Virus record (IMG/VR): IMGVR_UViG_3300036791_000312
Span: 1-43,603 of that record
Source of the DNA: a virus
DNA length: 43,603 nt
Strand: one strand, 5' to 3'
In this document: one piece after another, positions 4,361 through 42,291 of the stretch
How the letters are laid out: every line of letters begins with the position of its first letter
How positions within the stretch are numbered: the first letter of the stretch is position 1
Program-made: the position numbers and the translations under genes
The notes under the pieces: generated by a model
Seen by the model: the letters and a program-made list of their open reading frames with translations, nothing else
What the model was told of the DNA's origin: nothing
Databases searched by the model: none

Positions 4361-5593
4361 CTAGGTCGCGGACAGTCGCACCGGGACGATGGTGAAGTTG
4401 ATCGCGTAGTAGGTCGAGCCCGCCCCGCCGTAGCCGCAGGAGCCGACCGACCAGCCCTTCGTATATGCCTGCTTCGCGGGAGCCGTCGCGAGTGCGACGT
4501 ACCACTGCGCTTGATTCGTCGCGGCGGTTTGCGCCGCGTTGTTTCCAGGCGAGTTGACCCAGACGCCGTAGTACAGGGTGGTGGCCGTGGTGCCGGTTAG
4601 CGCCTGGCAGCCGCCCTGAACGATGTACTCGCCGTCCTTCGGAATGGTGAACGCGGTCGCGCTGAAGTTCTGCCAGACGCTCGTCGCGCCAAGCGTCTGC
4701 GTCGCCCCCTGCGAGCTGACGACGGGCGCCCCGCCGATGCACTCCCACGGGTAGCCGCTCGTCGCGGCTGCGTTGTAACGCAGGTGCCACTCGTAGGTCG
4801 GGTTCGCCAACCCGTCGACGTAGAGGATCTGCTCGCCGTCGTAGGGTGCCGCCGGGAACTGACTCGTCGCGGCGTAGTACGGCTGCTGCGCGATCAGCGT
4901 CCACGCCGAGCCGTTCGATTGCCAGGTGCCGAGACGGTCGGTCGCCTTGTAGATCGCCCCGGCGTTCGCGGCGCTCGCCGCAGGCCGAGCCGCGTGCGTG
5001 CCGCTCAGACACAGACCCGCCACGTCGCCGGGGTTGATCGGCTGCCAGACCGCCGCGCCGCCGACGCCCTTGATCCACTGCCCGTTGACGACCGGCGTCG
5101 GGACGCCGACACCTGCCACGCCCTGCGGGCCTGCGACACCTTGCGCCCCGGTGTCGCCCTTCGGGCCCTGCGCTCCTGTCGGCCCCGTCGGCCCCGTCGG
5201 CCCCGCGACGCCCTGCACTCCCTGATCGCCCTTCGGGCCCTGCGTTCCCGTCGCTCCAGTCGGCCCGGTCGGCCCCGCTGGCCCGGTTGGCCCTTCCGGC
5301 CCCTCGGGTCCCGGCGGCCCCGGCTCTCCGGTGCCGTAGGTAGGTGCGTTCGAGATCACCCAGGGCGTCCCGTCCTCCTCCGAAAGGACGAGCAGGACCT
5401 CATCGCCCTTCAACGGCGTGCTCGATCCGGGCACCCAGCGGCACGGGCCCCAGACCTGCCGATCGCCGTCGAAGGCGCCGACCGTCACGTAGAGGTCGTC
5501 GTCGGGACCGACAGGCGTGTTGACGATCGTCGCCTTGACCGCCGAGACGGGTGGGTCGGGCGGCCGAAGGAAGTCGGAGATCGTCGAGCTCAT
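4361..5593 (-). CDS. Baseplate spike-like protein with collagen-like repeats
   Basis: This 410-aa protein starts at an ATG that overlaps the hub stop. Residues about 18-82 look like the OB-fold of gpV/gp5-type spike proteins ([21 protein letters not shown]). Residues about 88-162 are Gly-X-Y repeats ([20 protein letters not shown] and onward), a collagen-like trimeric stalk. The remaining 250 residues contain Trp- and aromatic-rich segments and may be a tip or carbohydrate-binding domain. Its position between hub and gp25 supports a central spike or short fibre. The exact class is inferred. Confidence 0.75.
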
Positions 5594-16192: not shown

Positions 16193-17692
16193 TTACTGCG
16201 TAGGTGGTGGCCCGCCGCCACCCGGCGGCGTCGTGCCCGCAGGCGCGGGCGTCGGCTCGCCCGAGGGTGCGGCAGTGGCCTGCGACCCGGGCGTTGAAGT
16301 CAGGATCTCGCGGGCCGTCGCGGCCTCGGCCTTCGCTGCGGCCTGCAGCTCGGCCTCGCGCTTCGCCTCCTCGGCCTTCTCCATCTCAGCGATCTGCTCG
16401 GGCGTGTAGCCGAGCTCCAGCCAGATGACCGGCAACGGGATGCCGAGCGTGGACTTCTTCTGGGCGGCGTCGACGAGCGCACCCGGTGCGACCCGCTCGG
16501 GGTTCTGCCAGATGGCTTCGCAGTCGGCGGCCTCGACCTTGATCCCGGTAGCCGTAAGCGCCAGTGCGATCGCTTCCTCCCAGGAGTCCGAGAAGAACAG
16601 GGTCTTGCTCCTGCACTTCGAGACGAGCCCGGCCTCTGCAACCGAGAGGGCGTCGCCGCTCATGTTCACGAGCTTCGCGAGCAGGTAGTGCGGTGGCGTG
16701 CGCGTCTGCGCCGCGAGGTGCGTCACGTACATCTCGATCGCGTTGACGAAGTTGTTGAGGTCAGCGGCGGGCAAGTCCATGACCCGCGCATCTGGTGGCT
16801 TGAAGCTCCAGAGCCGACTCATCGCCGCCTTCAACTCGACGGCCGAGAGCGTCGCGCCGGTCTCCGGGTCCTTCGGCAGCTCGATGCCCGTCACGACACG
16901 CTGCGGGAACGCCCCGTACTCGGAGGTGACGATCATGTCCGTGCACAACTTGTTGATCGCGTTCTGCAGCGGGATCGCGGGCTCGAGATCCGAGTGTGCG
17001 ACGCCGAGGATTCCTGGCTTGTTCTCCAGCGGGATCACCGGCACGACGCCGAGCGGGTTGTCGACCTCGGCGGGCTCGCCCGTCCGTCCGACCCAGGTCG
17101 TCCCGCTGATCTGCGTCCCTGGACTCGACACGGGCTCGGCGCTCTCCCACTTGAGCACCACGTCCGGCAGGTAGAGCGTCAGGTACTGGTAGCCATCGTC
17201 ACCGAGCCAGCGCTTGATCGCTGCGAGACGGTTGCGCCGGTTGCCCGGGTCGGTCGCGACGAGCACCTGCGAGGCGTGCTCGACCGTGATGAGCGGCTCA
17301 CCGCCGTTCGGGTCGACGAGCAGGAAGGCGCGGCCGTTCTTCCCAGCCTCGGTGTGCGCGACCACGCTCTCCACGTCGAGTGCGTTCGCCTGCCAGAGCG
17401 CCCAGGCGTCATCACTCACGTTGCCCGTGACCCGGAAGCCGACGACACGCAGGCGCTCGACCGCGGCGTCGACGACGATCTGACACCAGTTGTCCGCGAA
17501 GGCACTGAACAGGGCGCCGAAGGCCTCACGGAACTTCGAGGTCGCGAACTGCAGCGGGTGACGCCCGTCGTAGTAGGCCTCGTACCACGAGGCTTGCTCG
17601 GCTCGCACGTCGAGCACCGGCAGCAGGAAGTTGCGCCAGTCCTCGGGCGTGCGCTCAGCGGCGCGTGGCAGCCGTGTCGCGATCGTGCTCAC
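16193..17692 (-). CDS. Portal protein (SPP1 gp6-like)
   Basis: This 499-aa protein has a GTG start overlapping the terminase stop. ASWYEAYYDGRHPLQFATSK near the N-terminus, NALDVESVVAHTEAGKNGRA, and IPLQNAINKLCTDMIVTSEY are the standard marks of this portal family. The C-terminus is Pro/Gly/Thr-rich (GTTPPGGGGPPP). It should form the dodecameric ring for DNA entry and exit and terminase docking. Confidence 0.92.
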   Translation of the reverse strand: MSTIATRLPRAAERTPEDWRNFLLPVLDVRAEQASWYEAYYDGRHPLQFATSKFREAFGALFSAFADNWCQIVVDAAVERLRVVGFRVTGNVSDDAWALWQANALDVESVVAHTEAGKNGRAFLLVDPNGGEPLITVEHASQVLVATDPGNRRNRLAAIKRWLGDDGYQYLTLYLPDVVLKWESAEPVSSPGTQISGTTWVGRTGEPAEVDNPLGVVPVIPLENKPGILGVAHSDLEPAIPLQNAINKLCTDMIVTSEYGAFPQRVVTGIELPKDPETGATLSAVELKAAMSRLWSFKPPDARVMDLPAADLNNFVNAIEMYVTHLAAQTRTPPHYLLAKLVNMSGDALSVAEAGLVSKCRSKTLFFSDSWEEAIALALTATGIKVEAADCEAIWQNPERVAPGALVDAAQKKSTLGIPLPVIWLELGYTPEQIAEMEKAEEAKREAELQAAAKAEAATAREILTSTPGSQATAAPSGEPTPAPAGTTPPGGGGPPPTQ

Positions 17693-19032
17693 TGGAAGGC
17701 GAACTCCGTTCGGTCGAGGTTGTCGGCCAGCGCATCGCTGCGGGCCTCGTAGGCGAGCACGGCCGCGATCGCGAGATCGATGTTGGCGCCCGTGCGTCCC
17801 TTCTCCAGCCAGTAGCCGCCGCGGGCCTCGCGGATCTGGGCGTTCAGCATGTGCCGTGCGAGTGCTTCGTCACCCGTGTGCACGACTGCACCCGCGATCA
17901 GGTCGGTACGGAAGCGCTCGACCGCCGCCATCATCTTCGTGCGGCTCGTCTGGAAGCGCAGCACGACCGAGCCGTAGCGCCGTGCCCACTCGTCGATCTC
18001 GGTCTGCCAGAGCGGCGGGTCGGCGTACATGCGCTCGACCCGGTACAGCTCGAAGGCGTCCTCAACCTGCGCGTCGACCTCGTCCGAGCGCACCTCCCAC
18101 TCACCCGGGCCCTTCGGCTTCTCCCAGACCGCGAGCGGCTGCAGCAGCCCGTCACTCAGACGGCAGGCGACGAGTGCGGTGGCGTCGTGATAGCGCGAGC
18201 CGTCGAAGCCGAGCGCGATCGCGTCCCCGGGCTCCAGCCGTTCGGCCGAGGCGGCGTCCTGCCACATCTCCGGCCGCAGCCACCACGTTTCGGCACCCAT
18301 CCAGATCCCGCAGGCGAAGCGGGCCCACTGCCACGGCAGCATCGAGGGCGAGCTGTGCCGCTGCGCGAGCAGCTCGGGCGTCTGCCAGCTCGCGGGGTTG
18401 ACCTCCTTCACGAGCCGCAGGTCCTCGGTGTCCTCGTCGGGCTCCAGTGCCCACTCGTGCATCGCGAAGCTGTCGTCGTCGGTGCGGACGTGCAGGTAGT
18501 GCCCCTCGCGCCGCAGGCCTGGCAGCTTGCGAGCCGCCGCCCGCATCTCCCCGAGCGGTGAGAGCTCGTGATCGCCCGCCGTCGAGATCGTCACCATCTG
18601 GCCGTTGCGCGGCCCGAGCCCGTCCCGGAAGACGCCGTAGAGATCGGCCGAGCGGTGCCGGTGCAGCTCGTCGACGAGCGCCAGCGTCGGGATCACGCCG
18701 TCGGCCGTGTCCACGTCGGCCGCCAAGACTCGAATCCGCCCGGAGTCACGGCGGCTGCGGATCTGCCGGTAGCCGGACTTCGTGACCACCCGCCGCTGCA
18801 GGCCCTCCGAGCGCCCGACGAAGCCGGTGGCCTGCTCGTAGAGGATCGTCGCCTGATCGCGTGAGGCAGCGCCGATCACGCACTCGGCATCCGGCGTCAC
18901 GATCAGGTGGTAGAGCGAGAGCGCCGCGAGCAGGGTGGTCTTGCCGTTCTTCTTCGAGAGCAGGACGAGCGTCTCGCGGACGCCCTCGAAGTAGTCCGTC
19001 AGCAGCCGCCGCTGGAAGGGCTCCAGCAGCAC
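17689..19032 (-). CDS. Terminase large subunit
   Basis: This encodes 447 aa from a GTG, the first standard start. Walker A is around LSKKNGKTTL, Walker B around TLALVDELHRH, and the nuclease domain shows ALGFDGSRYHDATALVA and ANIDLAIAAVLAYEA. The N-terminus is likely longer: codons upstream read GDLGSFDRFCRALTLEQGG, expected for this family, and the frame is open to 19161. A CTG at 19152 with AGAGGA just upstream could be the true start (487 aa). The protein powers genome packaging and cuts the concatemer. The portal gene overlaps by 4 bases. Confidence 0.92.
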   Translation of the reverse strand: MLLEPFQRRLLTDYFEGVRETLVLLSKKNGKTTLLAALSLYHLIVTPDAECVIGAASRDQATILYEQATGFVGRSEGLQRRVVTKSGYRQIRSRRDSGRIRVLAADVDTADGVIPTLALVDELHRHRSADLYGVFRDGLGPRNGQMVTISTAGDHELSPLGEMRAAARKLPGLRREGHYLHVRTDDDSFAMHEWALEPDEDTEDLRLVKEVNPASWQTPELLAQRHSSPSMLPWQWARFACGIWMGAETWWLRPEMWQDAASAERLEPGDAIALGFDGSRYHDATALVACRLSDGLLQPLAVWEKPKGPGEWEVRSDEVDAQVEDAFELYRVERMYADPPLWQTEIDEWARRYGSVVLRFQTSRTKMMAAVERFRTDLIAGAVVHTGDEALARHMLNAQIREARGGYWLEKGRTGANIDLAIAAVLAYEARSDALADNLDRTEFAFQ

Positions 19033-19087
19033 GGGCCCGCCCTGCTCCAGCGTCAGCGCACGGCAGAAGCGATCGAAGGAGCCAAGG

Positions 19088-19612
19088 TCACCCGTGGTAC
19101 CCGCGGCGCCGCTCGGCGAGCTCGTCGACTTCGGTGAAGGGGTCGTCGTCAGGGGATTCCTCTACGGGTTGTGGTGGTGGGGCCTCGGCTCGCATGCGGA
19201 CGGAGGGCTTGCCGTAGCGCGTCGGCGCGAGTCGTTCGAGCAGCCAGCTCGCGGCCTGCCAGGAGTCGCGGGCGGCGCGGGTGATCTCACCGACGAGCAG
19301 CACTTCGGCCTCGGCCTGCGAGCGCTCGACGGCCTCACGGAAGATCCGGTACTCCACGTCCTCGGCCTTGCCCGAGCGCCCGCGTGTCATCCAGCGCTTG
19401 TAGGTCGAGTAGTCGACGCCGATGGCCTTGATCGCAACCTGCAGGTAGGCGCCCGAGCGCAGCATCGTCGTCAGCCGGTTCGAGAGCTCCTCGGTCAGGA
19501 GCGTCGGTCGCCCGACTCGACCCATGTGTGAGACGCACTTCGTGAAGCCCTCCATCGCGTTGCGCTTGCAGGGCTCACCGGCCACGGTCGTCGCGTCGCA
19601 GAGCTGCGTCAC
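19088..19612 (-). CDS. Terminase small subunit
   Basis: This 174-aa protein starts at a GTG overlapping the methyltransferase stop. Residues 1-30 look like a zinc knuckle (Cys5, Cys15, Cys26, His29). A helix-turn-helix-like segment follows (LLTEELSNRLTTMLRSGAYL; KAIGVDYSTYKRWMTRG), then a helical oligomerisation region and an acidic tail. It recognises phage DNA and delivers it to the large subunit. The large-subunit frame probably begins inside this gene. Confidence 0.88.
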   Translation of the reverse strand: MTQLCDATTVAGEPCKRNAMEGFTKCVSHMGRVGRPTLLTEELSNRLTTMLRSGAYLQVAIKAIGVDYSTYKRWMTRGRSGKAEDVEYRIFREAVERSQAEAEVLLVGEITRAARDSWQAASWLLERLAPTRYGKPSVRMRAEAPPPQPVEESPDDDPFTEVDELAERRRGYHG

Positions 19613-20295
19613 CGGCTACAGCGCACAAGCGAGGAAGGCGGGAAGAACGTGTACTGCGTGCCCGGCTTGACCTTGCGCCCGTTGACGTAGCGGAAGTGCT
19701 CCGCGAGCCGCGCGAGCACGTCGAGATACACGTCCGTCGAGCGCTCGTAGTCGAAGTGCCACTCGAAGACCAGCTTGTGCAGGTGCCCGAAGTCCTCGAC
19801 GGCCTGCAGCAGCTCGATCTCGGCGCCTTCGATGTCGAGCTTCGCACCGTCCATGCCTGCGATCGCGTCCTCGAAGGCAACCACCGGGACCGCGAGCCCC
19901 TCGGCCCGCTGCTTGAGCAGCGAGTGACGCCAGAGCGAGCGCGAGAGGCCGAGGCGACCTGTGCCCCGATGCAGGGCCACGGCCTTCTCGCGCACGCGAG
20001 CGGTGAGCCCGTTCAGGGCCAGGTTGCGCCGCGCGAGCTCGGCGTGCTCGGGCCAGGGCTCGTAGGCGGTGACGGTCGCCCCGGCAGCGGTCGTCAGCAC
20101 CGCGAAGGTACCGATGTTGGCCCCAGCGTCGAGCCAGCGTTCGCCCGGCTCAGGGTGGAAGGCCCGCGTGAAGTACGACCGCCGCCGGACGACTTCATCG
20201 AGCACGCTCTCATCGGAGCTGCCCGGCCGGATGAGCCAGTGGAAGCCGCCGCACTCGACCTGCACGAGGTCGAGCCGCTCGGCAACGGTGCTCAT
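19609..20295 (-). CDS. FkbM-family methyltransferase
   Basis: This 228-aa protein starts at an ATG that overlaps the dioxygenase stop. It has an S-adenosylmethionine site: motif I WLDAGANIGTFAVL at residues 54-67, then VTAYEPWPEHAELARRNL with Glu79. The FkbM-like segment AKLDIEGAEIELLQAVEDFG lies around residue 155. FkbM enzymes O-methylate sugar or other hydroxyls. Tight coupling to a TET/JBP-like oxygenase and to terminase suggests the substrate could be oxidised phage DNA bases; this is inference. A metabolite or capsule substrate is the alternative. Confidence 0.85.
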   Translation of the reverse strand: MSTVAERLDLVQVECGGFHWLIRPGSSDESVLDEVVRRRSYFTRAFHPEPGERWLDAGANIGTFAVLTTAAGATVTAYEPWPEHAELARRNLALNGLTARVREKAVALHRGTGRLGLSRSLWRHSLLKQRAEGLAVPVVAFEDAIAGMDGAKLDIEGAEIELLQAVEDFGHLHKLVFEWHFDYERSTDVYLDVLARLAEHFRYVNGRKVKPGTQYTFFPPSSLVRCSR

Positions 20296-21119
20296 CGGGC
20301 GAACCTCGACCGCTCGCGCTCCGTGCGGCGCTGCGCTGCCAGGCGAACCGAGTCGACCTTCGGATCGCAGCGCCACATCTGCTGCAGCGAGTAGAAGACG
20401 ATCGAGAAGCGGTAGCCGTCCGAGCGGGCGATGCGGAACGGCGAGACGCCATGCAGGATCGACTGCCCATCGAACATGAGCAGTGAGTGATCCCGCAGCC
20501 GGAAGCAGAGATCGAGCTCCGGGCAGACGAGGTTGCCACCGACGCAGCCGGACTTGAAGACGAGCATGTTCGACCAGCAGTCCGCGAAGTTGCCCGTGTC
20601 GAAGTGGTAGGGCAGCTTGTTGTTGCGGTTGATGATCCCGCTCGTGAAGACACCACCTGCGAGCCGCCACTCCGGGAGCACGCGGGAGACGATCTGCTCG
20701 TGCTGGGCATAGAGCTCCGGGTTGAGCCGCCGGTACCAGGACTCGACGACCTCAGCCAGAGCTGCGATCACGGCGTGCTGCGTCGGCGCCTCGCTCGCCA
20801 GCTTCGCGTCCCGACAGGTCTCCTCGCCGCGCACCGTGACCTTCGGCGCGTAGCCGAACGTGCGGGAGGTCGAGACCATCCCAGCCGTGCGTGAGGTCGT
20901 CGCGAAGCGGATCGAGCGCAGCGCCGCGACGGCCATCGGCAGCTGCTCGTCGAGCTCGACGTAGACGGCCGCAGGTGCCGCATCGTTGCCGAGCGTGACG
21001 ATCGCGGGTTGATCGACCATCACCGAGACGTGGCGCTCGTCGGCGTAGGCACCGCGGTAGCGCTCCAGGTCGACCTCGCGGCGCTCGACGTACAGCCGCT
21101 CGAAGCCCTCATCCCACAT
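20292..21119 (-). CDS. TET/JBP-like Fe(II)/2-oxoglutarate dioxygenase
   Basis: This 275-aa protein starts at an ATG overlapping the ParB-like stop by 11 bases. FTSGIINRNNKLPYHFDTGN carries the HxD metal pair (His172, Asp174). The next parts are GGNLVCPELDLCFRL, then LLMFDGQSILHGVSPF with distal His223, and GYRFSIVFYSLQQM with Arg237 for 2-oxoglutarate. This layout matches the TET/JBP family that oxidises 5-methylcytosine or thymine in DNA. The N-terminal 150 residues are unassigned. No cytosine-C5 methyltransferase is visible, so thymine or a host-methylated base is the likelier substrate. Confidence 0.82.
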   Translation of the reverse strand: MWDEGFERLYVERREVDLERYRGAYADERHVSVMVDQPAIVTLGNDAAPAAVYVELDEQLPMAVAALRSIRFATTSRTAGMVSTSRTFGYAPKVTVRGEETCRDAKLASEAPTQHAVIAALAEVVESWYRRLNPELYAQHEQIVSRVLPEWRLAGGVFTSGIINRNNKLPYHFDTGNFADCWSNMLVFKSGCVGGNLVCPELDLCFRLRDHSLLMFDGQSILHGVSPFRIARSDGYRFSIVFYSLQQMWRCDPKVDSVRLAAQRRTERERSRFAR

Positions 21120-21756
21120 CGGTCACCGCCGCGAGGACGATGGCCTCGACGACCTCCGAGTAGGAGTCGACGCCGAGCTTGTCTCCGATCGCGTCGAGCG
21201 CATCGACCAGCCGCTCGTAGCGCTCCTGGTCGTAGCTGAGCTGGATGCGGAACAGCGTCGCGTCTCCGATCGCGTAGGGCTGCCCGGCCGGGTCGGCGCG
21301 GCGCCCAGCCTGTTCGAGCCGCGCGGGCTCCAGGTAGGCGAGCAGGGCATCGAGGTCGTCACGCGAGTAGCCGATCCCGTCGAGGGACTCGGTCGTCGCG
21401 AGCTCGCTCAGCAGCTCGGCCAGCTCGCGATCGTCGTAGAGCCCGAGGTCAGCGAGGCGGTTGTCTGCCAGCAGGTAGGCCTCGACTTCCTCGTCCGTGA
21501 GATCGCTACGCACGGTCGCGACGTGCGACCACCCGGCACGTCGAGCGGCCTGCCAGACGTGGTGCCCGGCAACGATCGTGCCGTCCGTCAGCGCGAGGAT
21601 CGGGCGCTGCTGCCCGAAGCGATCGAGGCTGCGGCGGATCGCGTCCACATCGCCGCGGCGCGGGTTGCGTGGATGGGCGTGCAGCTCGTCGAGCGCGACG
21701 AGCAGCGGCTCCAGTCCTGCGTTGCCGGTCCAGACCGTCGTCGTTCGCGTCGACAT
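21109..21756 (-). CDS. ParB/Srx-fold protein (ParB-like nuclease domain)
   Basis: This 215-aa protein starts at an ATG with GGGAGGGG upstream. Residues 14-110 form a ParB-like domain: LHAHPRNPRRGDVDAIRRSL, DGTIVAGHHVWQAARRAGW (GHH in place of the usual GHR) and VEAYLLADNRLADLG. The C-terminal third is less conserved. Such domains accompany DNA-modification and methyltransferase genes in phages. It opens a run of tightly coupled genes (dioxygenase, FkbM, terminase). A role as nuclease, nucleotide-binding or DNA-guiding factor is possible. Confidence 0.85.
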   Translation of the reverse strand: MSTRTTTVWTGNAGLEPLLVALDELHAHPRNPRRGDVDAIRRSLDRFGQQRPILALTDGTIVAGHHVWQAARRAGWSHVATVRSDLTDEEVEAYLLADNRLADLGLYDDRELAELLSELATTESLDGIGYSRDDLDALLAYLEPARLEQAGRRADPAGQPYAIGDATLFRIQLSYDQERYERLVDALDAIGDKLGVDSYSEVVEAIVLAAVTDVG

Positions 21757-21864: not shown

Positions 21865-22029
21865 CTACCCCTGGTGCTGTCCGCTACGGATGCGGGCGTG
21901 CGCCAACGCTCCGTGCTTCGTCTTCGAGCGAGCGACGATCTTGCCGTTCGACTTGTCGACCACTGCGAAGTTGCCAGTGCTCGCGGTCTTCGTCGGCCGA
22001 TGGTGGACGGTGAACCTGTCAGCGGGCAC
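21865..22029 (-). CDS. Small basic hypothetical protein
   Basis: This 54-aa protein starts at a GTG with AGGAGGG upstream and overlaps the HNH gene by 11 bases. Sequence includes FAVVDKSNGKIVARSKTKHG and ends RIRSGQHQG. It is Lys/Arg-rich and might bind nucleic acid. The following 108 bases (21757-21864) hold T-runs (gcgcgtttttcgggtttttt) but no clear gene. Confidence 0.65.
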   Translation of the reverse strand: MPADRFTVHHRPTKTASTGNFAVVDKSNGKIVARSKTKHGALAHARIRSGQHQG

Positions 22030-22309
22030 GACGCCCTCCTCTCACGCTGTTGTGACACTCGCCGCACAGTGCGACGAGTCGATCCATTGGTGCCAGCTCG
22101 GGGCCACCGAGTACGAGTGAGTCGACGTGATGCACCTCGACTGCCTGCCGACCACACCACTCGCATCGTCCCTGTGCGTTGCCGATCACCTTGCTTCGCA
22201 GTCGGCGCCACGGTCGTCCGCCTCTGCGCCGATGCTGCTCACAACGAGACTCGCCACTGACAGCGATCGTCGGGCAGCCGGGCACGGCACAGACCGTGCC
22301 TGCTCTCAT
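22019..22309 (-). CDS. HNH endonuclease
   Basis: This 96-aa protein starts at an ATG overlapping the previous stop (ATGA). An N-terminal zinc cluster (Cys7, Cys12, Cys23, His26) precedes the HNH core: RCEWCGRQAVEVHHVDSLVL with the tandem His at 60-61, then MDRLVALCGECHNSVRGG. HNH genes beside terminases are common and often needed for packaging cleavage. It is separated from terminase by the ParB-TET-FkbM set here. Confidence 0.88.
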   Translation of the reverse strand: MRAGTVCAVPGCPTIAVSGESRCEQHRRRGGRPWRRLRSKVIGNAQGRCEWCGRQAVEVHHVDSLVLGGPELAPMDRLVALCGECHNSVRGGRRAR

Positions 22310-22590
22310 CGCCGCTGCTTGCGTTCCGTCAGCACGCGCACGTCGAGCACGGCCACACGTGGGATCTGCATCACGTCTGCGCACATCGCTGCATCCGCCT
22401 CGCGCTCGTTGCGCGTGCTGCCCATCAGCAGCACGTAGTCGTCGTGATCGACGAGCAGGTAGCCGCAGGAGTGATGCACGAGGTCGTCGTCCGCGGCACT
22501 ACGGACTGCGGCATGGATCGACTGCCAGCCTGCCGTGCTCTGCGAGTCGAGCCAGTCGACCTCGACGAACTCGTAGGGCGTAGCGCTCAA
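22306..22590 (-). CDS. Hypothetical protein
   Basis: This 94-aa protein has a TTG start overlapping the previous stop. Contains EFVEVDWLDSQSTAGWQSIH and VDHDDYVLLMGSTRNEREAD; a compact mixed alpha-beta domain is likely. No family is recognised. Confidence 0.65.
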   Translation of the reverse strand: MSATPYEFVEVDWLDSQSTAGWQSIHAAVRSAADDDLVHHSCGYLLVDHDDYVLLMGSTRNEREADAAMCADVMQIPRVAVLDVRVLTERKQRR

Positions 22591-33410: not shown

Positions 33411-34679
33411 TCAGAAGCCCTCGGGGAACTGTCCGTAGGGCACGGGCTCGGGCTTCGGCTCGGGCTCGGCCTCGGGCTCGGGCGTCGCCGCAGACGTGCC
33501 CGCCGCCGTCGCCCCAAAGCCGCCTGCTGCCTCGCTGGGCTTCACCCGGCCTTCCTTGATGACCAGCCAGTCGATCAGCTGCACGGCCTCAGGACGCAGC
33601 AGGGAGTCCCGTAGCGGTGCCCAGTGCAGCACGCCCTCGGGATCGCGCCCACCGATCACCTCGGCCATCACGCCGGGATCGATCTGGCGCAGGCCTGCGA
33701 TCGAGGTGTAGAGCTGCTCGGTCGTCAGGTGATCGGGTCGCAGCTTGCCGACCAGCACGTTCAGCTTCTTCGCCTGCGCCTCGGTCAGCTTCATCGTCGC
33801 TCGCGATCCGGTGGACGCTGGAGCGGCTGCTGGAGCAGCCACCTCAGTCGGGGTGGGCTCGGGTTCGGGAAGGGGTGTCGATCCCGCGCCTACGTGCTCA
33901 CCGGGACCGAACGGCGCCTGTCGAGACGACCGCGGAGCGGCGGGCTCGGAGACGGCGTCCAGCGCTTGCTCGACCGTCGGCGTACCTCGCGGGACGGGCA
34001 CGTGTCCCGGTTCCAAGGCACGGGGCGAGCCGTCAGGACTCCCCGAGCCGAGGGCGAGGTAGCCGACGGCGAGATCGATCGTCGGTACGACGAACCTGGT
34101 GACCTGCTGATCCTTCACGGAGCGCCGCTGCTCCAGCCGCAGCTTGGCGGGGACGAAGGTCTGCCCACCTGCAACGGCGTCGACGATCTTCATCGCGGTC
34201 GGGATCTCCAGACCGGCGAAGATCCCACGGGTGATGAGCCGCCAGCCGAGCACGGTGTCGAGCTCGGGCAGCGCGACCGTCAGCCGGGTGTAGAGGTCGC
34301 ACTTGTCGACACCTTCGGCGTTACAGATGCAGGGCCCGTCCGTCAGCTCCTCGTGCTCGCCGTCGCAGATCCGCTCGCAGCGGGTTGCACCCTGCCAGAG
34401 CTCGTAGCTCTGCCGGACGCTGTAGGCAGGCATCACGAGGATCGGCAGCTCGGCTGCCTCGGTGTAGACCTGCCACTGCTCACCGGTCGGGCCCGCCCAC
34501 GGTGTGACCGTGCCACCGTAGAGCTGCGCCGCCTGCTCCAGCAGGGCCTTGGTCGGTGAGGTCAGACGCCAGGCATCGAGACGACGCCCAGCTCCCCGCT
34601 CGGGCTTCTCACCGCCTGCGCGGATCGCGCCGACGAGACTGAGACGACGCTGCAACTCGATCAGGGGTGTCGGGCTCAT
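33411..34679 (-). CDS. Recombination directionality factor, phiC31 gp3-like
   Basis: This 422-aa protein starts at an ATG. RRLDAWRLTSPTKALLEQAA, LYGGTVTPWAGPTGEQWQVY and the Cys cluster (Cys101, 105, 117, 119, 127: CERICDG...CIC...C) followed by LGWRLITRGIFAGLEI match the phiC31 gp3 family. Those proteins reverse large serine integrases to excise the prophage. The C-terminal 130 residues (from MKLTEAQAKKLNVLVGKLRP) are a separate helical region with Pro/Glu repeats. It pairs with the integrase at 40732. Its first 13 residues recur in the next gene. Confidence 0.8.
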   Translation of the reverse strand: MSPTPLIELQRRLSLVGAIRAGGEKPERGAGRRLDAWRLTSPTKALLEQAAQLYGGTVTPWAGPTGEQWQVYTEAAELPILVMPAYSVRQSYELWQGATRCERICDGEHEELTDGPCICNAEGVDKCDLYTRLTVALPELDTVLGWRLITRGIFAGLEIPTAMKIVDAVAGGQTFVPAKLRLEQRRSVKDQQVTRFVVPTIDLAVGYLALGSGSPDGSPRALEPGHVPVPRGTPTVEQALDAVSEPAAPRSSRQAPFGPGEHVGAGSTPLPEPEPTPTEVAAPAAAPASTGSRATMKLTEAQAKKLNVLVGKLRPDHLTTEQLYTSIAGLRQIDPGVMAEVIGGRDPEGVLHWAPLRDSLLRPEAVQLIDWLVIKEGRVKPSEAAGGFGATAAGTSAATPEPEAEPEPKPEPVPYGQFPEGF

Positions 34680-35008: not shown

Positions 35009-35241
35009 GACTCCCGCTCCAGCCATGAGGCCGCCGTATCGAAGTCGACGTTGAACGCGACCGGCTGGCCTCCCCGCCACACGTCGTAACTGCCGCCGCC
35101 CCCATCGAGGGCGCCCGTTTCGCAGCACACCTCGATGTCGGCTCTCGCTACGCACGGCACGTCGCCCGCCAGGGTGACGATGCTCGCTCCCGACACACGC
35201 CGCGCGAGCGCGTACAAGGCAAGCCACATAGTCGGGCTCAC
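35005..35241 (-). CDS. Hypothetical protein
   Basis: This 78-aa protein starts at a GTG and begins MSPTMWLALYALARRV, also near the repeated start. Contains DVPCVARADIEVCCETGALD with three Cys. Function unknown. Confidence 0.6.
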   Translation of the reverse strand: MSPTMWLALYALARRVSGASIVTLAGDVPCVARADIEVCCETGALDGGGGSYDVWRGGQPVAFNVDFDTAASWLERES

Positions 35242-36044
35242 AGCCGCCTCCCCCCGCGCAGGCCGCTGTTGTACTGCTCGCGGAGCCAGTCGGAATACGT
35301 GACGGACTTCGACTGACCCATAGCGTTGTCGACGGCCTTGAGGATGTACCCGGGATGGAGCTTCGAGAGCTTCATGACGAGACGGTCGTCGTCGATCCGG
35401 TCGAAGTAGCGGCCGATGAAGGTCGCGAGCCCGAGCAGCGTCTTCCCCTCGTAAGCCTCACGAGACGGCGAGTTGCCCCAAGCGAGCTGGCGAATGTAGA
35501 GCACCCGCTCCAGGAGGTCAGAGCCGCCCTTGTCGTAGATCGCCACGATGGCCCCGGCCGGGACCGCGCCGCTCGCGCTAGCCGACTTCCCCATGTGCAG
35601 GTCGTACTCCTGGAGCGACTTGTTGATCAGCATGCTGCCCGGGTCGGCCGCACCGAGCGATCCGATGAACTTCTCGAAGGCCGAGAGCAGTTTGCGATCG
35701 CGGTTGATGCGAAGGAACAACTCCGCGAGTCGCTCCTTCGTCGCGATCCCCTCGACCAGGAGCACGGCGACGAGCTCCAGCCCGATGCCTTCACACGCCC
35801 CGAGTCGCTGCTGACCGTCGAGGTCGATGTAGTGACCCTCGAAGGCAGCGACCAAGGGGAAGGCGTAGGCTGTGCGGTCGAACTCGCCAGTGAACTTCGC
35901 GATCTGCCTGGGAAGCCGCTCGCGCTGGAAGTTCGCCATCAGGATCTGGTCCCGTCGTAGCGTGACGAGCCGAATCCGCTCGGCACCCTCACCCTCGTAG
36001 ATCCGGAGGGTCGGGGGTGCTTTTGGTTCAGTGACAATCGCCAT
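35238..36044 (-). CDS. ParB-like/DGQR-family protein
   Basis: This 268-aa protein starts at an ATG. The ParB/Srx-type core includes YIDLDGQQRLGACEGIGLEL around residue 75 and AELFLRINRDRKLLSAFEKF, a plan typical of DGQ(H)R-domain and ParB-like proteins. The C-terminal half is helical. It sits beside a second ParB-like gene; roles in DNA transactions or nucleotide binding are possible, not shown. Confidence 0.75.
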   Translation of the reverse strand: MAIVTEPKAPPTLRIYEGEGAERIRLVTLRRDQILMANFQRERLPRQIAKFTGEFDRTAYAFPLVAAFEGHYIDLDGQQRLGACEGIGLELVAVLLVEGIATKERLAELFLRINRDRKLLSAFEKFIGSLGAADPGSMLINKSLQEYDLHMGKSASASGAVPAGAIVAIYDKGGSDLLERVLYIRQLAWGNSPSREAYEGKTLLGLATFIGRYFDRIDDDRLVMKLSKLHPGYILKAVDNAMGQSKSVTYSDWLREQYNSGLRGGRRL

Positions 36045-36058
36045 CTGGATCTCCTCCG

Positions 36059-36817
36059 TTAGCGCAGCGCTCGCGAGACCACCGTGCGCTGTTCGAGCGC
36101 GATGGCGACCTCAGTGAGCTTGCGGTTGACACGCTGGACTCGCTCCAGCATCCGACGAGCCTGGGCCGGTGTCGTGCCCCAGAGCCGCTCCTCGTCCCAT
36201 GTCCGCAGGTACTTGTCGAGCGGGTCGAGTACGTCTTTCAGGTCCTTCCGCCCGTACTCGCGGTGGGCCTTCCCGCTCTTGCCGCTCGGCGTCCGGCCGA
36301 GCGTCTTGCTCGCTGACCGGAGTGTCGTCTTGCCGGTCTTCACCTCATCGAACAACTCGGGGCTCGCCTCCTTCACGGCCTTCGCCTCCTGCACGTAGCG
36401 GGGACTGGCACCCGTGAGAGCGGCAGCGTCCTCACGCGACTTCGGGGCCGCTTGTGGCGCGTTTGCCACAAGCGGCTTCCGCTTGTTGTTCAGCGTCCGT
36501 TGCCGCTCTCGCGCCTCGGCCTCGAACATCGGGAGAGCCTCGACGGCGATCGCGGCTCTCTGCCCTGGCGTCAGATGCCGACGGTGGACGTTGTGCGAGA
36601 GCACGTAGCGAAGCGGTGACTCGCCATCCCACTCCTCGAATCGCGGCTCGACTCCGGCCCGTTCACACGCGAGGAAGCGGTTGCGTCCGTCGAGGATGAG
36701 CCCTTGGTAGGTAGTGATCGGGTCGAGAAGACCGTTGGCGCGAAGGTCGTCGGCCAACTCCTCCAGCTCGCCCTCGGTCATCAAGGGGAGCAGGTCGGCT
36801 GCGGGGTGGAACTTCAC
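36059..36817 (-). CDS. ParB-like nuclease-domain protein with helix-turn-helix
   Basis: This 252-aa protein starts at a GTG. LMTEGELEELADDLRANGLL, YQGLILDGRNRFLACERAGV and LSHNVHRRHLTPGQRAAIAV are ParB-type (DGRNR in the nucleotide-binding site). A helix-turn-helix-like RYVQEAKAVKEASPELFDEV and a Lys-rich end follow. Partition proteins share this plan, but no ParA or clear centromere site is near. It may act as a regulator or nuclease. Confidence 0.78.
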   Translation of the reverse strand: MKFHPAADLLPLMTEGELEELADDLRANGLLDPITTYQGLILDGRNRFLACERAGVEPRFEEWDGESPLRYVLSHNVHRRHLTPGQRAAIAVEALPMFEAEARERQRTLNNKRKPLVANAPQAAPKSREDAAALTGASPRYVQEAKAVKEASPELFDEVKTGKTTLRSASKTLGRTPSGKSGKAHREYGRKDLKDVLDPLDKYLRTWDEERLWGTTPAQARRMLERVQRVNRKLTEVAIALEQRTVVSRALR

Positions 36818-37032
36818 AGCAGCGCCTCCTGTCCGAGCAGGCCATCCCGTGCGAGCGTCACGCAGGCTGGGTGGGCCCACTCCTGTCGGGTCTCACGCAT
36901 CGCGATGTCCGAGCCGCCGTGCTTACCCGAGGCCCGGACACCGGCCATGCGCTGCCAGCCGACGACTCGCTGCCAGACGTGCGGCGAGCTCACGTCAACC
37001 GGCTTCTTGCAGATCGAGCAGAGCGGCTCCAC
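36814..37032 (-). CDS. Small zinc-binding protein
   Basis: This 72-aa protein starts at a GTG three bases after the neighbouring stop. CSICKKPVDV near the start and WAHPACVTLA near the end supply CxxC and HxxC ligands. Function unknown; small zinc proteins of this form are common in actinophages. Confidence 0.65.
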   Translation of the reverse strand: MEPLCSICKKPVDVSSPHVWQRVVGWQRMAGVRASGKHGGSDIAMRETRQEWAHPACVTLARDGLLGQEALL

Positions 37033-40731: not shown

Positions 40732-42291
40732 ATGGACCAGCACTACCGCAGCGACCTGCCCTACGTCGGGCTCGTCCGGGTGTCCCGTGTGGGCGCCCGC
40801 AAGAAGAACGACCGCTACATCACCACGCGGATTCAGAAGAAGGAGATCCACGAGATCGCCGAAGGCCACGGCGTCAAGGTGGCCGAGATCCTGGAGGACG
40901 AGAACAAGACCGGGGCGAACCTCAACCGCCCGGCCTTCCAGCGGGCCCGCGAGCTCGTGCTCAGCGGCCAGCGCGGCGGGATCATCGTGATGAAGGTCGA
41001 CCGGCTCAGCCGCAACATGCTCGACCTGCTCAACACCGTGCAGGAGATCGAGAACGCGGGCGGCGCGATCTTCTCGGGTGACGGCGATCCCTCGATGCGC
41101 GACGCAACCAGCGCGATGATGACCGCGATGCGAGGCAACCTCTCGCAGGGCGAGCTCGGCAACATGAAGGACCGGATCGACAAGAACATGGCCGACGCCG
41201 TGAGCCGAGGCGTTCACCTTGGCAGGCCCTTCGGGTACGCGCGGCCGAAGCCCGGCAAGCCGCTCGTCGAGGACGAGATCGAGGCACCCATCGTTCAGCG
41301 CATCTTCGAGCTCCGGGCGGACGGCATGGGTTGGGTCCCGATCGCCCGCACGCTGAACGAGACGACGAGCGTGCGACCGCGCAGCGGCAAGCCCTGGAAC
41401 CACAACGCCGTCCGCGGGATCGTGCGGAACGACGCCTACCTCGGTGTCGTCCGCGGTGGCGGTCGCACCTACAAGGGCCCGCTCGCGCACGCCCCGCTCG
41501 TCTCGCGCGAACTCTGGCGGCGTGCGAACCGGGCGACCGGGACGCGCAAGGATCAGGTCGGCAGCGGCGCCTGGGAGGGTGGCTCGACGGGCGCGAGGCG
41601 CGGGCCAAAGGAGGGACATCTCCTGACGGGTCTCGTCCGCTGCGCCGGGTGCGGCTACGTGATGCAGCACTACCGGGCAGGCCAGGGCTCGCGGCGCTAC
41701 TACCGCTGCCCGAACCGTGGCAACGGGGCCTGCCAGGCCCCGGCGAACGTCAACGCCACGCAGGCCGAGACCTTCGTCGTCGAGCGCTTCAAGGCCCTCT
41801 ACCACGACGTTGAGGCGGTCGGCTTCCTCACCGATGAGCACGTCACCGCCGCGCAGGCCCGGTTCGATCAGGCCGAAGCGGGCTTCGTCTCGATGGCAGC
41901 GGCGCTGCAGACGCTGGGCTCGATGACGGCGCTGGAGAAGCGGCTGTTCCAGCAGAGCCAGGACGAGGTGCGGCGCGAGCTCGCGAACGCGGAGGCAGAC
42001 CTGCAGTCCGCGCGGGCCTCGGTCGCCTCGACCGACCTGCCCGTCGACGCCCTCCACGAGAACGCCTTCGACACCGAGCCGGTGGACGTGCAGCGTCACT
42101 ACCTAAGCCTGGTCTTCGCGGCTCTGGTCGTGCGGCGCTACCGCCCCGATCCCGTCGGGCTTCGGCACGAGCATGTGGCCGACCGGGCCCAGGTCGTTGG
42201 GCGCGACGAGGCGCCGGACGGGTCGGCCCGTCTGATCGACTTCTGCGCCGCACTCACCTGGAGCGAGCCAGCGGGTGCCGCGGTGCTTTAG
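40732..42291 (+). CDS. Large serine integrase
   Basis: This 519-aa protein starts at an ATG with GGAGG upstream. The resolvase domain (residues about 10-150) has catalytic Ser18 in LVRVSRVG, MKVDRLSRNMLD and the QGELGNMKDRIDKNMADAVS helix. The recombinase domain follows (HNAVRGIVRNDAYLGVV), then a zinc ribbon (VRCAGCGYVMQHYRAG, with CPNRGNGAC) and a coiled coil at about 375-440. It inserts phage DNA into the host chromosome; the gp3-like protein at 33411 should reverse it. The attP site is probably close but cannot be fixed without the host sequence. Confidence 0.95.
   Translation: MDQHYRSDLPYVGLVRVSRVGARKKNDRYITTRIQKKEIHEIAEGHGVKVAEILEDENKTGANLNRPAFQRARELVLSGQRGGIIVMKVDRLSRNMLDLLNTVQEIENAGGAIFSGDGDPSMRDATSAMMTAMRGNLSQGELGNMKDRIDKNMADAVSRGVHLGRPFGYARPKPGKPLVEDEIEAPIVQRIFELRADGMGWVPIARTLNETTSVRPRSGKPWNHNAVRGIVRNDAYLGVVRGGGRTYKGPLAHAPLVSRELWRRANRATGTRKDQVGSGAWEGGSTGARRGPKEGHLLTGLVRCAGCGYVMQHYRAGQGSRRYYRCPNRGNGACQAPANVNATQAETFVVERFKALYHDVEAVGFLTDEHVTAAQARFDQAEAGFVSMAAALQTLGSMTALEKRLFQQSQDEVRRELANAEADLQSARASVASTDLPVDALHENAFDTEPVDVQRHYLSLVFAALVVRRYRPDPVGLRHEHVADRAQVVGRDEAPDGSARLIDFCAALTWSEPAGAAVL

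Follow-up and report, generated by a model that had tools for sequence, protein, structure and literature searches.

The window analyzed here is an entire viral record, IMGVR_UViG_3300036791_000312 (43,603 bp, 68.6% G+C). Because its terminal ∼54 bases repeat at the other end with one mismatch (read by eye), the genome is probably complete and circularly permuted; it encodes a serine recombinase and a Gp3-like recombination directionality factor, so the phage is probably temperate. On the minus strand, genes run from an HNH endonuclease through a ParB-like protein, a TET/JBP oxygenase, and an FkbM-type methyltransferase to the small terminase subunit (TerS), the large terminase subunit (TerL), and the portal protein (Table 1). 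The ParB and TET genes overlap by 11 bp, and the TET/FkbM and FkbM/TerS junctions by 4 bp each, just as the original prediction had it when it described three overlapping genes coupled to TerS by overlaps of 4 to 11 bases. Its phrase "fused into the packaging operon" was loose: the coupling by overlap is real, but the genes are separate ORFs, with no fusions.

Table 1. Features of the window discussed in the text
Feature	Coordinates	Strand	Basis or remark
Portal protein	16193..17692	-	PF05133, 98 bits
TerL	17689..19032	-	PF03354, 66.8 bits; PF20441; listed start late
TerS	19088..19612	-	PHROG 4102, E 2e-26
FkbM-type SAM methyltransferase, 228 aa (proposed O-methyltransferase)	19609..20295	-	PF05050, motifs, fold
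TET/JBP 2OG-Fe(II) dioxygenase, 275 aa	20292..21119	-	PF12851, conserved site, fold
ParB-like protein, 215 aa	21109..21756	-	First cassette gene; GHH variant of ParB motif
HNH endonuclease	22019..22384	-	Upstream of cassette; PF01844, 22.4 bits (cut-off 21.4)
Gp3-like recombination directionality factor	33411-34679		
Serine recombinase	40732-42291		

Several other features of the genome were noted. The TerL frame stays open 5′ of its first ATG, GTG, or TTG (19032-19140) and extends into conserved sequence, so translation probably begins at an unusual start codon. Near the recombination genes (35238-36880) lie two further genes, one matching DUF6551 and the other ParB-like by eye, without a Pfam match; a tail-region protein (4361-5593) carries collagen-like repeats (PF01391). 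A TET scan of species genomes yielded no host for the phage, its single match being an Ignavibacteria MAG.

The oxygenase scored 48.1 bits against Tet_JBP (cut-off 34.9; E 9.5e-13), and the residues of its Fe(II) triad (the HxD residues H172 and D174, plus H223) and its 2OG arginine (R237) are invariant in a 21-row alignment of relatives, bearing out the earlier TET/JBP assignment. Its AlphaFold (AF2) model (pLDDT 90) has a double-stranded β-helix nearest those of known TETs: the best structure was human TET2 (Z 20.8; 260 residues at 3.7 Å), followed by NgTET1 at Z 20.0 and CMD1 at Z 19.0; the FTO and AlkB families ranked below (Z ∼15). Enzymes acting on nucleic acid thus match first, and a prolyl or phytanoyl hydroxylase, the kind of match that the original prediction said would refute it, was set aside on this structural evidence. 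The oxygenase probably oxidizes a DNA base. The queuine transglycosylase label attached to such proteins in PHROG 6059 and in GenBank records is wrong, since the protein is a TET/JBP enzyme; TET/JBP proteins appear there as "queuine tRNA-ribosyltransferase" or "DpdA-like." Records with mislabeled TET/JBP or ParB-like proteins include L003 (813-1691) and L034 (NC_020857.1; 6699-7484 and 5360-6001).

The methyltransferase exceeded the FkbM cut-off (33.9 versus 22.7 bits) and retains the family motifs D56xGxNxG, E79P80, and K152xDxEGxE, those for SAM included, in agreement with its original classification; its AF2 model (pLDDT 87) is a Rossmann methyltransferase fold. The best structural matches of this model were mostly RNA base methyltransferases, and the predicted fold singles out no acceptor, a base hydroxyl included. 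FkbM families use varied acceptor hydroxyls, and many homologues methylate small molecules or glycans; PF05050 enzymes with known function are mainly O-methyltransferases. Both the nature of these homologues and the RNA methyltransferase matches would suit a TET and an FkbM enzyme that, although cotranscribed with packaging genes, have RNA, a virion protein, or a small molecule as their target in place of phage DNA. We consider this very improbable: the TET fold lies nearest DNA-acting TETs, the linkage to ParB and terminase is conserved across unrelated phages, and DNA-hypermodification genes occupy the same slot. Family membership, together with the exchange with glycosyltransferases described below, suggests that the FkbM enzyme probably transfers a methyl group to a hydroxyl.

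The first cassette protein matched the ParB-like families PHROG 620, 723, and 8071 (E 4e-34 to 2e-33), consistent with the initial call of a ParB-like protein with a GHH variant; because its ParB_N score (PF02195; 20.3 bits) falls below the Pfam cut-off of 26.3, we name it ParB-like only. Of 90 viral TET loci scanned with a ParB HMM, 81 had a match upstream of TET.

With ParB, TET, and a tailoring gene upstream of terminase, the cassette is of an established type among phage DNA-hypermodification operons, and the placement of ParB-TET beside packaging genes has precedents. Iyer et al. 2013 and Burke et al. 2021 reportedly deal with such operons; the latter is said to have shown phage TETs acting on 5-methylcytosine (5mC) and to describe clusters in which TET, paired with a C5-methyltransferase, builds complex bases, a partner that the window lacks. 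TET lies downstream of ParB in the regions examined from cultured Gordonia, Rhodococcus, Mycobacterium, Microbacterium, and Arthrobacter phages, and terminase follows within the same stretch except in Arthrobacter phage Prairie. The tailoring position is variable, holding a glycosyltransferase (TAGT), a P-loop kinase, an amino acid:DNA transferase (ADDT), or FkbM. In the cassettes of mycobacteriophages and Arthrobacter phages such as PRodriguez/Acadian and Prairie, as in the window, ParB, TET, and a hydroxyl-tailoring enzyme are neighbors and mostly overlap (directly upstream of terminase in PRodriguez), but tailoring is assigned to TAGT and a PIG-L deacetylase rather than FkbM. Gordonia phage LittleMunchkin and Rhodococcus phage Tonitrus likewise have ParB-TET upstream of terminase and no C5-methyltransferase; their operons contain ADDT (PF18724) and a gene annotated as "adenylate kinase" (a Ploopntkinase3 match in LittleMunchkin), and, unlike in the window, the hydroxymethyl base is apparently phosphorylated and then amine-replaced, not O-methylated. 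What differs here is the TET-plus-FkbM variant with its predicted methoxymethyl base, on which the literature searched, a set outside Iyer 2013 and Burke 2021, contained nothing relevant.

The present analysis adds an FkbM subfamily tied to TET. A single-sequence FkbM search of viral contigs returned only the contig of L007; a query built from an alignment of FkbM proteins alone returned 81 viral loci. TET was present in 70 of these 81, a count biased by seed members drawn from TET-linked FkbMs; it lay ≤300 bp away in 66 and was always on the same strand. Both TET/FkbM gene orders occur, with at least two order changes required on the FkbM tree, and the presence of FkbM on the TET tree implies at least eight gains or losses. 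FkbM and TAGT were never found together beside TET (0 of 14 versus 28 of 69; Fisher p 0.0016, uncorrected for relatedness), and no TAGT lay within 3 kb in any of 69 FkbM+TET loci; a tree-corrected test of exclusivity pointed in the same direction, with too few pairs. The recurrent linkage, the order changes, and the exclusion of TAGT all strengthen the functional TET/FkbM pairing proposed earlier.

Within the window's own phage family, whose TETs are 66 to 76% identical, the content of the slot between TET and TerS swaps. It holds FkbM in the window and L011, a C5-methyltransferase plus FkbM in L007, TAGT in L008, L009, and L012, a C5-methyltransferase plus an unclassified, weakly TAGT-like gene in L010, and a P-loop kinase in L037. 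Given this exchange and the failure of the two to co-occur beside TET, FkbM and TAGT look, from their gene neighborhoods, like two interchangeable ways of capping one hydroxyl.

As to which base would be modified, the original argument for thymine was that cytosine methyltransferase and glycosyltransferase genes are absent, and by profile this holds: no C5-methyltransferase (PF00145) match was found in the window genome, which thus lacks the partner expected of a 5mC-TET pathway, and Pfam scans of selected window ORFs found neither TAGT nor another glycosyltransferase. Nor did PF00145 match in 9 isolate genomes with ParB-TET; of 25 additional FkbM records, 22 likewise gave no match. Thymine is favored because C5-methyltransferases are missing from the window, these isolates, and most FkbM records, and because ADDT and kinase genes, which belong to the 5-hmdU pathway, share the slot; if the pathway proposed below is right, thymine is its likely substrate. 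The inference stands only in part, since L007, the closest relative (TET 76% identical), has the order TET, C5-methyltransferase, FkbM, so that 5mC could be the substrate. A cytosine route, in which a phage or host C5-methyltransferase makes 5mC, TET oxidizes it to 5-hydroxymethylcytosine, and FkbM yields 5-methoxymethylcytosine, would fit this gene order, the C5-methyltransferases of some other TET records (among TET+FkbM records, L117, L130, and L132), and the reported action of phage TETs on 5mC. We nonetheless judge it unlikely: the apparently complete window genome and the nine isolates lack PF00145 matches, and methylation by the host would leave 5mC sparse. Active-site residues do not discriminate between the two bases, because L245 (eight after R237), which is nearly invariant, is also found in L007 with its C5-methyltransferase; N177 lies five after H172. 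The C5-methyltransferase-like proteins in the TET-terminase slots of L007 (6813-7481) and L010 (2643-3299) are short, and the former passes the PF00145 cut-off while the latter does not.

Some FkbM relatives occur without TET. Two of them, L129 and L173, adjoin thymidylate synthase (TS)-family and kinase genes: in L129, FkbM lies beside a dNK-like kinase and a TS-family gene, and in L173 (5105-8502) it overlaps a 5-hmdU DNA kinase gene (PF18723), with a TS-family gene close downstream, forming a TET-less hypermodification cluster. If these TS-family genes encode hydroxymethylases, a hydroxymethyl pyrimidine would be supplied without TET. In the window, such a nucleotide-pool route and a 5-hmdU kinase were both set aside, as neither PF00303 nor PF18723 had a match. 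Another locus that lacks TET, L120 (4021-6690), combines ParB and FkbM with a radical SAM enzyme, which is possibly another means of activating a base; L170 has ParB, TAGT, and FkbM, also without TET.

The L173 kinase might consume the same hydroxyl, which counts against O-methylation. This pairing, the diversity of FkbM acceptors, and the general capacity of TETs to oxidize past hydroxymethyl would be accommodated if TET made a carboxyl that FkbM converts to a methyl ester, or if FkbM methylated an amino or other group of the modified base. Such routes seem improbable to us, though less so than a target other than DNA: FkbM replaces in the slot, and never accompanies beside TET, an enzyme (TAGT) that uses the hydroxymethyl oxygen, and O-methylation is the prevailing activity of its family.

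TET/FkbM pairs are also carried by cultured phages. Pelagibacter phage HTVC112P has the order ParB-TET-FkbM, and Prochlorococcus phages MED4-117 and MED4-184 have ParB-FkbM-TET, one gene before the large terminase; all three resemble the window in having ParB, TET, and FkbM upstream of terminase, and the cyanophages differ from it in gene order. Prochlorococcus phage P-HS2 contains an FkbM homologue. The proteins of all four phages are distant from those of the window, with FkbM identities of 27 to 29%. In the two MED4 phages, the annotated "DNA methylase" is a ParB-like protein and the "queuine tRNA-ribosyltransferase" a weak Tet_JBP match. Because these laboratory-cultured phages carry the pair, the methoxymethyl model is open to direct test.

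The linkage of TET and FkbM, the exclusion of TAGT, and the cultured carriers make O-methylation of a TET-made hydroxymethyl pyrimidine the best model. According to this model, the cassette would modify the phage's DNA while it is being packaged or just beforehand. A pyrimidine of the DNA, most likely thymine, would have its 5-methyl group oxidized to hydroxymethyl by TET, and FkbM would move the SAM methyl group onto the hydroxymethyl oxygen. The resulting 5-methoxymethyl-pyrimidine would be 5-methoxymethyl-dU for a T substrate and 5-methoxymethyl-dC for 5mC. ParB would probably provide DNA binding or site choice. The methoxymethyl base may shield the DNA from host nucleases, replacing the sugar that TAGT would add in sister phages. 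We regard this pathway as a whole, with thymine as its most likely starting base, as moderately likely.

A broader proposition, on which we are evenly divided, is that there exists a widespread class of phages whose DNA contains an undescribed base, 5-methoxymethyl-deoxyuridine (or -deoxycytidine), made by TET followed by an FkbM-superfamily enzyme dedicated to O-methylating DNA; we know of no earlier FkbM enzyme that acts on DNA. If this is true, a function would be assigned to phage methyltransferase family phrog_28597, listed as unknown in PHROGs, and a DNA O-methyltransferase would become available to mark or protect 5-hydroxymethyl bases. The known phage base modifications would also gain a small neutral cap, one that could take the place of a sugar on the same hydroxyl.
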